Positions 48,166-59,530 of a stretch of DNA of 64,000 bases are shown piece by piece. A program made the position numbers and the translations under genes. The notes under the pieces were generated by a model, which was given only the letters and a program-made list of their open reading frames with translations, was not told the origin of the DNA and made no database searches. Within the stretch, counting starts at the first letter, position 1. Each line of letters begins with the position of its first letter. Source of the stretch: Herbiconiux sp. SALV-R1 (GTDB lineage: Bacteria > Actinomycetota > Actinomycetes > Actinomycetales > Microbacteriaceae); assembly GCF_013113715.1 (NCBI RefSeq), contig NZ_CP053344.1, positions 3,348,001 through 3,412,000 of the forward strand. Direction: 5' to 3'.

Positions 48166-48229
48166 CACGTTCTTACGGACAAAGTCCGTGAAGACTGCAG
48201 TTGTCACGGACTTTGTCCGTAAGAACGTG
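48166..48229. repeat. Family A palindrome, copy 1
   Basis: Two perfect 26-base arms (48166-48191 and 48204-48229) flank a 12-base loop. Each arm contains the small palindrome ACGGACAAAGTCCGT. It sits between the convergent LLM gene and the 54-aa gene. Confidence 0.95.
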
Positions 48230-48240
48230 GTGGGCTGGGC

Positions 48241-48405
48241 TCAGCGCTCTCCGGTGCGGTTCTCGCCGACGGCTCGGATGCTGCGGAGGTCGTCGGCGAG
48301 CTCCGACTCCGGTGTCGGGGCTGTCGTCTCGTGCTCGTCGTCGTGCGCGGTCGTCAGCGAGGTCTTCGACGGGTCGACAGCATCCGTCTCGTGGGGGTGG
48401 CTCAT
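48241..48405 (-). CDS. 54-aa acidic small protein
   Basis: The frame starts at ATG 48405, overlapping the stop of the DUF3072 gene (ATGA). It encodes a 54-aa His/Asp/Glu/Thr-rich protein starting MSHPHETDAVDPSKTS and ending AVGENRTGER. No family is recognised. The coupling to DUF3072 and the ending just before family A copy 1 support a real gene. Confidence 0.6.
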   Translation of the reverse strand: MSHPHETDAVDPSKTSLTTAHDDEHETTAPTPESELADDLRSIRAVGENRTGER

Positions 48406-48731
48406 GCGCCGCGGCCCGTCTTCTGCTGCAGACGATCGATGTGCTCGGAGGCCTCGGCCTTGGTGAGGTCGGCCGGCAGCTCCTCCCCCGCCTCACGGGC
48501 CAGGGTGTCGAGGTAGCTCTTCTGCGGGCCGGTCATCGGCTCGTCGCCCGTCACCCACTCGCTCGGGTCTTTGCTGGCCGGCTCGGCAGGATCGGGCCGC
48601 TCGCCACCCAGCGTCTCCTGCTGCGGCTCGTCGGCCTCGGCACCCTCGCCCGGCGCGGTCGCCAGGGCGTCGTCGCCGGCGCCCGCGGTGGTGGGATCGT
48701 ACTGCTCGTCGTTCTGCTGCTCGTCGCTCAT
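48402..48731 (-). CDS. DUF3072-domain protein
   Basis: The 109-aa acidic protein has a low-complexity N-terminus and a C-terminal DUF3072 segment (PMTGPQKSYLDTLAREAGEE, LTKAEASEHIDRLQ). Such domains are short helical units of unknown role in actinobacteria. Its stop overlaps the next start. Confidence 0.85.
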   Translation of the reverse strand: MSDEQQNDEQYDPTTAGAGDDALATAPGEGAEADEPQQETLGGERPDPAEPASKDPSEWVTGDEPMTGPQKSYLDTLAREAGEELPADLTKAEASEHIDRLQQKTGRGA

Positions 48732-48817
48732 GCCGAGGAGCGTACGCCGCTCCCCATCACCCGCCAGGGGTTGCCGCCCCGGGTTCCTCGTGCCGGTTGC
48801 CGCCCGCCGGCGCCCAC

Positions 48818-48881
48818 CACGTTCTTACGGACAAAGTCCGTGAAGATCTCGGTTATCACGGACTTTGTCCGCAAGAACGCG
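48818..48881. repeat. Family A palindrome, copy 2
   Basis: Arms 48818-48843 and 48856-48881 pair at 24 of 26 positions around a 12-base loop. Both differences are T-to-C in the right arm. On the leftward transcript they become G-U wobbles, so pairing is kept on the strand that is transcribed from the SGNH gene. Confidence 0.93.
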
Positions 48882-48892
48882 TCGACGGCGAG

Positions 48893-49717
48893 TCAGGAGG
48901 CGCGGCGGAGGCGGCGGTCGAGGGCCGGCACGAAGGCCGCGGCCCAGACGCGGTAGCCGCGGTCGTTGGGGTGGAAGAGGTCGCCCGCGAACTGGGTCGT
49001 CACGCCCCAGAGTCCCTGCCGCTCGGTGAGCGCGTGCAGCGGAACCACCTCGAGCCCCGCCCGGTCGGCGGCGGCCCGCAGCAGGCGGTTGGCCGCGCGG
49101 GCCTTCTTCTCGCCCGGCAGGAAGTAGAAGCTGGGGATGTCGGCGACCACCGCATCCGGAGCGAGCGCTGCAACACCCGTCAGCAGCCGCGCGATCTCAG
49201 TACGGAAGCGCGCCGGGTCGAACTCGGCCATGTCGTTCGCGCCGACGGCGACGGTCACGATGTCGGGCCGGCGACCGGATGCTCCTCCCTCGCCGTTCAC
49301 GATGCGCTCGAGCCTCGGCAGCTGCTGGTCGAGGGCCTCCCGCAGGCGAGCGCCCGACACGGCGAGGTTGATGACGCGCACGGGCCGGCCGGTGCGCTCG
49401 CGGAGGTGCCGGAAGAGGAACCCGACGTAGCCGTGGGAGGGCCGGCTCGCGCCGATGCCCTGCGCGGCGGAGTCGCCGAGGGCGACGTAGAGCAGCTCGT
49501 TCTCCCGGGCGGGCTTCGCGGCGTGGTCGCGCCAGTAGGAGGAGTGGATGGGGATGGCGTCGGAGAGGCGCCCGCGCCAGTGGTGCTGGCGGCGGGAGAG
49601 GTAGTTCGCCCAGGCGGCGATGCCTCCTGCGGCCGCGAGCGATGACGCAGCGACGGCGATCACTCGGGGGGCGCGCGAGCGGCGGGGCTTCGGGAACGGG
49701 CTCGTCCGGCGGGGCAT
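48893..49717 (-). CDS. SGNH/GDSL-type hydrolase, membrane-anchored
   Basis: The 274-aa protein has an N-terminal helix (IAVAASSLAAAGGIAAW) and a GDSL-type hydrolase domain: block I ALGDSAAQG, block III VGANDM, block V DLFHPND with the catalytic Asp/His. It is probably an esterase or acyl-hydrolase outside the membrane. ATG 49717 is six bases after TAGGGT (leaderless). It ends in front of family A copy 2 and is divergent from purL. Confidence 0.9.
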   Translation of the reverse strand: MPRRTSPFPKPRRSRAPRVIAVAASSLAAAGGIAAWANYLSRRQHHWRGRLSDAIPIHSSYWRDHAAKPARENELLYVALGDSAAQGIGASRPSHGYVGFLFRHLRERTGRPVRVINLAVSGARLREALDQQLPRLERIVNGEGGASGRRPDIVTVAVGANDMAEFDPARFRTEIARLLTGVAALAPDAVVADIPSFYFLPGEKKARAANRLLRAAADRAGLEVVPLHALTERQGLWGVTTQFAGDLFHPNDRGYRVWAAAFVPALDRRLRRAS

Positions 49718-49864
49718 GTCGCAACCCTATGACGGGCGGTGGCTTCTCCACAGGCCGGGTGGAGCGCATCCGTTCTGCACAGGTGGTTGCGACCGGCAGG
49801 CCGGGGGTACACGCCCGGTAGAATCGAGGCGTATCCCACCCCGCACGTCAAGGAGCTTCGCCGC

Positions 49865-57563: not shown

Positions 57564-57607
57564 CGGACAAAGTCCGTCCGAACGCACGTTTCGACGGACT
57601 TTGTCCG
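57564..57607. repeat. Family A palindrome, copy 3 (shortened)
   Basis: Perfect 15-base arms (CGGACAAAGTCCGTC, 57564-57578, and complement, 57593-57607) enclose a 14-base loop. It lies 14 bases after the FUSC stop. Confidence 0.85.
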
Positions 57608-57647
57608 TCAGAAACTGACCCGGCCGACGCCGGCACCGTTCTCACGG

Positions 57648-57685
57648 AAAAAGTCCGTGAAGAACGAGGTCTTCACGGACTTTTT
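57648..57685. terminator. Family A-type palindrome, copy 4, with A/U tracts
   Basis: Perfect 16-base arms (AAAAAGTCCGTGAAGA and complement) with a 6-base loop end in five T on both strands. It is a textbook bidirectional Rho-independent terminator between FUSC and purA, built from the family A core. Confidence 0.85.
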
Positions 57686-57735
57686 GCGGGATAACCGCCG
57701 CGCGCGGGCGCGCCGGGCGGCGCGCGACGCGCGAC

Positions 57736-59022
57736 CTACCCGAGCAGGTCGTGGCGGGTGACGATGGCGTCGCGGTCGGGGCCGACGCCGATGGCGGAGA
57801 TGCGCGATCCGCTCATCTCCTCGATCGCCAGCACGTAGCGCTGGGCCGCGGCGGGGAGGTCTTCGAAACGGCGCACGCCGGTGATGTCTTCTGACCAGCC
57901 CTCGAACTCCTCGTAGATCGGCTTGGCGTGGTGGAAGTCGCTCTGCGACACCGGCACCTCGTCGACCCGCACCCCATCGACCTCGTAAGCGACGCACACC
58001 GGGATGCGCTCGAGACCCGTGAGCACGTCGAGCTTCGTGAGCACGAAGTCGGTGACCCCGTTGATGCGCGCGGTGTAGCGGGCGATCGGCGCGTCGTACC
58101 AACCGGTGCGGCGCGGGCGACCCGTGGTCGTGCCGAACTCGAACCCCTTCGAGCGCAGGAACTCGCCCGACTCGTCGAAGAGCTCCGTGGGGAAGGGGCC
58201 TGCGCCGACCCGCGTGGTGTACGCCTTCACGACGGCGATGACGCGGTCGATGCGGTTCGGAGCCACGCCCGAACCGGTGGCCGCACCACCCGAGGTGGCG
58301 TTCGACGAGGTGACGAACGGATAGGTGCCGTGGTCGACGTCGAGCATCGTCGCCTGACCGCCTTCGAACAGCACGGTCTTGCCGTCGCGGAGGGCGCGGT
58401 CGAGCACGAGCGAGGTGTCGGCCACCATCGGACGCAAGCGCTCGGTATACGACAGCAGGTCGTCGATGACCTGGTCGGCGAGCACGGCCCGCCGGTTGTA
58501 CACCTTCACCAGAACGTGGTTCTTGAGGTCAAGTGCCGCCTCGACCTTCTGCCGCAGGATGCCCTCGTCGAACAGGTCTTGAACCCGGATGCCCACCCGG
58601 TTGATCTTGTCGGCGTACGCCGGCCCGATTCCCCGGCCGGTGGTGCCGATCTGACGCTTGCCCAGGAAGCGCTCGGTGACCTTATCGAGCGTGCGGTGGT
58701 AGGCCGTGATGACGTGCGCGTTCGCCGAGACGAGCAGGCGCGACACGTCGACCCCGCGCGAACCGAGCGCCTCCAGCTCGTGGAAGAGCACCTCGACGTC
58801 GACGACGACGCCGTTAGCGATGACGGGCGTGACGCCCGGGGTGAGGATGCCCGAAGGCAGCAGGTGCAGCGCGTACTTCTTGTCGCCCACCACCACCGTG
58901 TGGCCGGCGTTGTTGCCGCCGTTGAACTTGACGACGTAGTCGACGCGGCTGCCGAGCAGGTCGGTGGCCTTACCCTTGCCCTCGTCGCCCCACTGGGCGC
59001 CGATCAGGACGATCGCTGGCAT
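57736..59022 (-). CDS. purA: Adenylosuccinate synthetase
   Basis: The 428-aa enzyme joins IMP and aspartate using GTP, the first step to AMP. The motifs are [30 protein letters not shown] and [16 protein letters not shown] is before the ATG, and a -10-like TAGAAT is at 59097-59092. The length is normal. Third purine locus in the window. Confidence 0.98.
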
Positions 59023-59174
59023 GTGGATTCCCTCCGGATGCGGATGCAGGTTCCGATGTCAGTGCCCGGCGAGGGTGCCGGTTGACAGTCGATTCTATCG
59101 TGCGGTGGTCTTGGCGACCCTGATGCGGGTCGTGCCTGGGGAATCAGGATGCGCATCCGCTGGTTGTGGAGAAC

Positions 59175-59450
59175 ATGCCCGAGCTCCATCTCACGCTCTA
59201 CTCGTCGAGCTTCTGCGGCGCCTGCAACAGCACGCGCGCCACGGTCGAGCGCGTGGCCGAGCTCGTCGGCGAGCGCCTCGACTGGCGTGAGGTGAACGTC
59301 GCCGACGCTCCCGATGAGAGTGAGGCGAGCGGCATCGTCACCACGCCGACCGTCGTCATCACAGGCGCCGACGGCTCCGAACGGATGCGCGCCTCCGGCG
59401 TTCCGACGACACCCCAGCTGCTGGCGGCGATCGCCGCCGCCCTCCCCTGA
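59175..59450 (+). CDS. Glutaredoxin/thioredoxin-like small protein
   Basis: The 91-aa thioredoxin-fold protein has a CGAC active site (SSFCGACNSTR), a TTPTVV cis-Pro region, and a C-terminal helix. It resembles mycoredoxin/NrdH-type small redoxins. GTG 59166 is an alternative start. It ends before family A copy 5. Confidence 0.85.
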   Translation: MPELHLTLYSSSFCGACNSTRATVERVAELVGERLDWREVNVADAPDESEASGIVTTPTVVITGADGSERMRASGVPTTPQLLAAIAAALP

Positions 59451-59474
59451 CCCGCCCCGCGCCCTGCCTGCCAC

Positions 59475-59530
59475 TTCTTACGGACAAAGTCCGTGATAAC
59501 CGAGTTCTTCACGGACTTTGTCCGTAAGAA
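59475..59530. repeat. Family A palindrome, copy 5
   Basis: Perfect 22-base arms (59475-59496 and 59509-59530) enclose a 12-base loop. The loop (TAACCGAGTTCT) is the reverse complement of the copy 2 loop at 11 of 12 positions, so this copy is inverted relative to copy 2. Confidence 0.93.

Follow-up and report, generated by a model that had tools for sequence, protein, structure and literature searches.

The window analysed here is a stretch of 64,000 nt from Herbiconiux sp. SALV-R1 (NZ_CP053344.1, 3,348,001..3,412,000), and element positions are given in its coordinates. It holds five copies of a hairpin element, which we call family A, at the 3' ends of genes that include purA. The family A unit is 56 bp long and consists of TTCTTRCGGACAAAGTCCGT, 16 variable bases, and the reverse complement of TTCTTRCGGACAAAGTCCGT. 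An initial annotation of the window had placed the core of this repeat at five sites and nowhere else, and a search with the 17-base core, allowing up to 3 mismatches, returned exactly 10 window matches that form five inverted pairs; dinucleotide shuffles of the window gave a mean of 0.10 core matches, and none of 100 reached 10. Other descriptive claims of that annotation were borne out as well: copies 1, 2, and 5 have arms of 22-26 bp and a 12-base loop (copy 2 with one mismatch; in copies 3 and 4 the arms match less perfectly), copy 5 runs opposite to copy 2 (one difference is left after its 16-base loop is reverse-complemented), and all five copies lie just after gene ends, 7-41 bp past a stop codon on one or both sides (open reading frames, ORFs, with host genes by Pfam). 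Window positions 47000-60000 gave no Rfam match up to E 1.

The element is repeated far beyond the window. In the SALV-R1 genome (G000; 4.52 Mb, 99.92% complete), 50 elements were counted in 33 fetched stretches, with up to 6 mismatches allowed in 26 core positions and a spacing of 31 imposed. The initial annotation had looked to many intergenic copies as support for an amplified element, and only 2 of the 50 are intragenic according to a self-trained rough gene finder (173 genes, predicted reading frames only). Across the genome, the 15-base core with at most 2 mismatches has 46 forward and 42 reverse matches (1 and 1 for a reversed control pattern), all 88 of which fall in 47 of the 50 elements. 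Both 15-mer cores are within this threshold in 41 pairs, and the spacing is 31 bp in 41/41, the sole spacing below 100 bp; the remaining 6 matches adjoin a partner core that exceeds 2 mismatches. At this threshold the genome contains no unpaired core, so there are no single half-sites. Four copies at separate genomic sites (95164, 968335, 1107763, and 3407480, the last being copy 5) are identical over 56 bp, with flanks that differ beyond the nearest few bases, such that identity ends at the ends of the unit. This looks as if exactly the hairpin unit had been copied into new sites and perhaps also into existing ones.

Family A is confined to a narrow lineage. A covariance model built from the G000 elements was run on a genus set of 16 genomes (G000, its sister genome G014, and the others of G001-G015), with up to 150 candidates scored per genome and matches counted on both strands. 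It gave 104 matches in G000 (about 52 elements), 94 in G014, and a single one in G003; the remaining 13 genomes had none. A stricter pattern matched 39 times in G000 and 33 times in G014 but nowhere in the remaining 58 of 60 genomes. The exact core pair was absent from the named genomes, a comparison that may omit the SALV-R1 genome and those very near to it; the nearest purA there, with the same restriction on very near records, is that of Agreia pratensis at 91%. The hairpin at the purA 3' end of Agromyces mediolanus gave no sign of repetition: its 43 and 36 matches do not exceed the 47 and 51 of the control.

Table 1. Family A copies and other hairpins of the window
Feature	Window coordinates	Sequence and fold	Gene context	Corresponding site in G014
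Copy 1	48170..48225	26-bp perfect arms when 4 flanking bases per side are included; RNA fold -50.4 kcal/mol, z -10.8		Site without element
Copy 2	48822..48877		15 bp behind stop of GDSL-lipase gene (minus strand), ~90 bp upstream of tandem gene	Same-site copy; loop agrees better inverted, 13 vs 8 of 16
Copy 3	57558..57613		7 bp behind FUSC-domain gene, convergent gap with purA	Same-site copy
Copy 4	57639..57694	Variant, AAAAAGTCC core, ...TTTTTGCGGG	41 bp behind purA (minus strand)	Same-site copy; loop identical, 16/16
Copy 5	59475..59530	56-bp identity to three other genomic copies	Convergent gap between thioredoxin-like ORF (59166-59450, plus strand) and lactonase-like gene	Site without element
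Triplet of other hairpin	52252-52575	Three tandem copies, 136 bp apart; GTCGCGCAAA..GCTCTC arms, spacing 38	Convergent gap 52160-52642	
Long-armed hairpin	32444-32508	65 bases, nearly perfect 31-base arms (GAACGGTATGAGAATCGTGC...), spelling unlike family A		
Short hairpin	54022-54056	Perfect 17-base-pair hairpin, GCGAGCGCCCCGGAGTG-g-CACTCCGGGGCGCTCGC	~58 bp behind gene end	

The arms of the element pair strongly with each other. Folded as RNA, the five window copies reach -35.8 to -50.4 kcal/mol (z -6.5 to -10.8), and for each of them none of 200 shuffles folded as well. In the alignment of all 50 copies (47 distinct), 91.9% of cells of the long hairpin are paired, as against 85.8 in shuffles, and double changes affect 13 pairs (7.2 shuffled) and 77 cells (30.8 shuffled), values as high as which were seen in 0 of 500 shuffles; sliding the partner arm destroys this signal. 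Each arm also contains its own palindrome, CGGAC-AAA-GTCCG, in variant form in copy 4, and the initial annotation had proposed alternative foldings on this basis. These can be written, but the arm-internal fold has 2 pairs with double changes vs 1.3 expected (a value reached in 179/500 shuffles) and 6 double-change cells vs 2.3; none of the 500 shuffles equals its cell count or covariation score, but slid versions do. Variants such as TTCTCCCCGAC...GTGGGGGAGAA, moreover, break the arm-internal palindrome and keep the long stem. The internal palindromes, though present in the consensus, were rejected as a functional fold for their little covariation and their breakage in variant copies; covariation backs mainly the long hairpin, and the arm-internal palindromes far more weakly.

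Outside the stem, the adjoining base is G or T on the left in 46/50 copies and A or C on the right in 47/50, without covariation. Over about 30 nt, the left flank is rich in C and the right flank in G in tandem and convergent copies of five genomes, a bias stronger than in 31 element-free tandem gaps, and one that may reflect a target preference or a decayed outer stem. The biased outer base that does not covary, together with the 31-bp spacing of two 15-bp palindromes in 41/41 independent pairs (about three helical turns), could suit binding sites for a protein that recognises duplex DNA as two palindromes 31 bp apart, for chromosome organisation or as an uptake signal. We consider this very improbable: the variant copies give up the arm-internal palindrome and retain the long stem, and other hairpin families of the genus, described below, use different spacings. 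A DNA uptake sequence in particular was discarded, in that abundant single copies are expected of it and the own genome has no unpaired core within 2 mismatches.

Position relative to genes was examined for 187 copies from six genomes, comprising family A and the other hairpin families introduced below. The arrangement was convergent for 109, tandem for 65, and divergent for 3, with 7 in predicted reading frames and 3 unresolved. Five of the genomes account for 161 of these copies (90 convergent, 58 tandem, 3 divergent, 7 intragenic, 3 unresolved), and 26 copies of family D in G013 for the rest (19 convergent, 7 tandem). Median distances to the nearest stop codon are 24 bp in G000, 27.5 in G014, 26 in G015, 8 in G003, 25.5 in G002, and 19.5 in G013, the last covering only the 26 copies outside genes. 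The window has 31 intergenic gaps of 70 bp or more, and 11 of them are divergent, as against 3/187 copies (Fisher p 2.6e-8); divergent gaps are thus clearly avoided relative to this small control from one window. The rough gene finder missed the thioredoxin-like ORF and copy 5 was therefore counted as tandem, though it is convergent. From position and pairing together, the element is likely a candidate 3'-end hairpin.

The sister genome allows the history of individual sites to be followed. Aligned blocks of G000 and G014 longer than 250 bp are 72-95% identical, mostly 84-93%. Among 43 elements in the fetched loci of G014, 36 are at sites of G000 elements, which corresponds to 36/50 copies from the G000 side; in aligned loci, 7 copies are found in G000 only and 5 in G014 only, while 7 elements of G000 and 2 of G014 lie in loci for which no partner locus was available. 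At the 36 common sites, ungapped identity is 0.89 in the arms, 0.63 in the loops, and 0.46 in the adjacent 30 bases per side, and the loops are more alike there than elsewhere (mean best match 11.1 vs 8.5 of 16, permutation p 5e-5). Their orientation is not always conserved: 5 of the 36 same-site pairs agree better inverted by at least 4 positions (one of them 16/16), 11 agree better direct, and 20 are ambiguous. Replacement by another copy and in-place inversion cannot be told apart here as sources of the inverted loops. The consensus has also shifted at common sites, where stem pair 5/52 moved from T-A towards C-G (Fisher p 0.0004 for column 5, and 0.01). A closer match to a copy of the own genome than to the same-site copy was found for 30/36 G000 copies and 26/36 G014 copies, a test that is biased because 35 paralogues are compared with one orthologue. 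Movement of the element is inferred from this comparison of genomes.

A few copies lie inside genes. Two family A copies are in frame in nadB (L-aspartate oxidase by Pfam) of G000 (G000:C1:3713697-3715712; L064:1298-3313), where they read VLADKVRSNVLSDGLSPQES and FSPTKSGMTAVFTDFVGEN, and alignment places both in the G014 counterpart too; these two sites in two sister genomes make up four of the 7 intragenic copies. The first site faces a gap of 18 residues in the NadB of G015 and of 16 in that of Escherichia coli, as expected of an insertion. The nadB copies are located upstream of nadC in the same orientation, and the G000 gene ends in a long Pro/Ala-rich repeat tail. Single copies of other families were found inside an MFS transporter gene in G015 and close to where a histidine-kinase gene of G002 ends, both hosts being supported by Pfam, and one G015 copy overlaps the end of a predicted ORF.

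Hairpins repeated at gene 3' ends are known from another actinobacterium, Mycobacterium tuberculosis, where the TRIT family of terminators has many near-identical copies; for family A a terminating role is only putative, and no U-tract was found at its window hairpins. Of the terminator features, the G+C-rich hairpin and the position just behind genes are present and the U-tract is absent, with 0 terminator-like sites bearing a T-run in a 14.5-kb scan (window 46000-60500). REP sequences, for repetitive extragenic palindromic, are reported in excerpts of PMC8049555 to terminate transcription or affect mRNA half-life, and family A could likewise be a set of bidirectional terminators homogenised by gene conversion, with a spelling shared through recombination among copies. 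Such terminators would account for median distances of 8-27.5 bp (by genome) behind stops in mostly convergent gaps, for very stable RNA hairpins conserved against diverged flanks, and for the consensus drift between species at common sites. They would not be expected to lack T-runs, to serve only about 50 gene ends, to occur within nadB upstream of a gene transcribed in the same direction, or to be present in one sister genome and absent from the other, and the identity of the four matching copies ends at 56 bp, which is short for conversion tracts. We regard this explanation as unlikely, though worth keeping in sight.

The same architecture recurs under different spellings in the genus, where 8 of the 16 genomes carry one of four hairpin families: A in G000 and G014, B in G015, C in G003, G002, and G011, and D in G013 and G001. 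Hairpins near purA follow the gene in G015, G010, and G013; in G003, G008, and G012 they lie about 1.8 kb ahead of the purA stop. The three checked for repetition (G015, G003, and G013) all belong to repeated families. Family B has 36 and 34 arm matches in G015, with 35 paired copies in the fetched loci that all have a spacing of 35; G012 has 8 unpaired family-B-like arms. Arm matches of family C number 21 and 21 in G003, 22 and 24 in G002, and 18 and 8 in G011, and its spacing is 38 or 39 in 33 copies of G003 and G002. The family C stem has 70 double-change cells vs 43.2 (0/500 shuffles) and 16 pairs with double changes vs 12.7 (17/500 shuffles); its pair types are not above shuffles. Family D has 25 and 24 arm matches in G013 (control 0 and 2) and a spacing of 35 in all 26 copies, a count that excludes as chance one weak intragenic pair with 6+6 mismatches. 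It is weaker in G001 (13 and 15 matches vs 4 and 2 for the control; 7 or more pairs have a spacing of 35), and its G+C-rich pattern gives 1 to 11 matches, near control, in the other 14 genomes. Families A, C, and D each have an A-tract midway along the left arm, and a common origin of these three is therefore possible.

A homologous protein stretch is shared with a G000 element locus by 7/31 loci of G015, 4/20 of G003, and 4/9 of G002, and, within one family, 2/20 G003 loci share one with a G002 locus (9 G002 loci fetched). We did not rely on such site sharing across families: it is above a rough estimate of about 5%, but some cases look like paralogues and the preference for 3' ends inflates chance. 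Within the window itself, the tandem triplet listed in Table 1 resembles both family D and a repeat that G014 has at the site of the G000 element at 53747.

Short dispersed inverted repeats that are family-specific, present at some sites in one sister genome only, and found at times inside reading frames would also be produced by miniature inverted-repeat transposable elements (MITEs), that is, by what is left of a lost insertion sequence after internal deletion, with the arms as its terminal inverted repeats. We think this quite improbable. All 88 own-genome core matches within 2 mismatches belong to short elements; with no unpaired core, no longer relative with the same ends was found there. 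No target duplication was seen, in sister flanks that are mostly not alignable; the loop has a constant length in 35 copies of family B, 26 of family D, and 41 independent pairs of family A; and covariation is unexpected for dead copies.

The known elements that family A most resembles in anatomy are REP doublets forming hairpins (REPINs). Excerpts of PMC3116915 describe these as inverted pairs of conserved arms around a variable spacer with compensatory changes, extragenic, locally clustered, and able to fold as hairpins or clover-like forms, and report excised intermediates of them; REPINs are described as duplicated by REP-associated tyrosine transposases (RAYTs; excerpts of PMC8049555). 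Family A shares the inverted arms, the variable spacer, a single hairpin, and tens of mostly extragenic copies; it differs in its shorter length (56 bp), its actinobacterial host, and the absence of a GTAG tag and of a Y1/RAYT gene in its own genome. GTAG repeats are reported, in the excerpted part of PMC3733652, from Proteobacteria, Cyanobacteria, Chloroflexi, and the PVC group. Neither the consensus nor the conserved columns of family A contain a GTAG tag, and the flank consensus of families A-C has none either. The Y1 transposase domain (PF01797) was not found in G000 or in 7 of the 8 family-bearing genus genomes by a search that matched 5 of 14 known genomes as a control. Its only match in the 16 genus genomes is in G001 (G001:C11:24558-24878, L263), and that 3.3-kb locus has no family D arm within 3 mismatches. 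Because the tag and the Y1 gene are missing, family A is likened to a REPIN and not classed as one. Of the initial annotation's view of a mobilised or amplified REP-type element, amplification, dispersal, and signs of copying have thus stood, membership among REPs has not, and the RAYT that it proposed to look for was not found in the own genome.

The CGTC-tagged REPs of PMC3733652, which its excerpts present as short palindromes mostly in opposite-orientation dimers with no dedicated transposase, have stems of 8-9 bp vs 20-26 bp in family A, at whose foot no CGTC tag is conserved. Rickettsia palindromic elements are likewise palindromic repeats that form in-frame gene insertions, but they measure about 150 bp and nearly half are in ORFs (PMC10969869, in part), vs 56 bp and 7/187 intragenic copies here. 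SPRITE and QMITE2, miniature elements that the same excerpts describe as terminator-like or in the 3' untranslated region, are likened by description only. Among the literature matches listed, mostly from non-subscription papers, no such repeats were found in Actinobacteria.

We interpret the window copies as a lineage-specific, non-coding, REPIN-like hairpin element, and put the probability of this reading, its proposed copying mechanism and 3'-end role included, at roughly 0.6. The four identical 56-mers, the copies present in one sister only, and those inside nadB are signs that point to copying. A new copy would arise when the folded single strand is copied to or inserted at another place in the genome, or displaces a resident copy, aided by an enzyme that acts in trans and cannot be recognised as a RAYT. 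Such insertions would survive mainly where they are harmless, just behind stop codons, and rarely in frame in protein loops. Transcription from either side would yield an RNA hairpin of 20-26 bp, probably ending or protecting the 3' end of the transcript, and this role would explain why the arms stay paired while the neighbouring intergenic DNA diverges. Between species of the genus, sequence families would turn over as the architecture persists.

Several observations weigh against this REPIN-like interpretation. Mutational template switching in palindromes could also yield covariation of the arms, so that their pairing could be kept either by selection or by this process. The window hairpins are not followed by a U-tract, and the search identified no mobilising enzyme. 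No clear target-site duplication was found, because intergenic flanks of G000 and G014 mostly do not align at base level. Most sites are common to the sister species, and the element may therefore now move rarely or no longer. Only the first nadB site looks like an insertion, since the second corresponds to a long unrelated loop in G015 and to a loop of almost equal length in E. coli. REPINs also occur in E. coli genomes without a RAYT (excerpts of PMC8049555); the absence of a RAYT here is therefore no proof that none was ever involved, and its loss is a possible explanation.

A bolder version of the REPIN-like interpretation, which we advance only tentatively and hold to be rather doubtful, is that of a RAYT-independent replicator across an actinobacterial genus, with four families replacing one another, copies at inherited sites overwritten or flipped in concerted evolution, and some copies now serving as in-frame enzyme loops. 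If true, it would call for an enzyme, not yet described, able to recognise folded single-strand hairpins and copy them. REPIN anatomy in half a genus, with no RAYT in 7 of these 8 genomes and with turnover and coding insertions, would mean that this lifestyle evolved without a RAYT, persisted after losing it, or is driven by an unknown mobiliser. The pair of G000 and G014 makes the copying process directly testable, and the elements are candidate natural 3'-end hairpins for Microbacteriaceae.

Hairpins of other spelling accompany the families. Two from the window close Table 1, and in G015 (L070) a perfect hairpin, GAGCGGATGAGGGCA-7-TGCCCTCATCCGCTC, which is not family B, lies about 1.65 kb before the purA stop.

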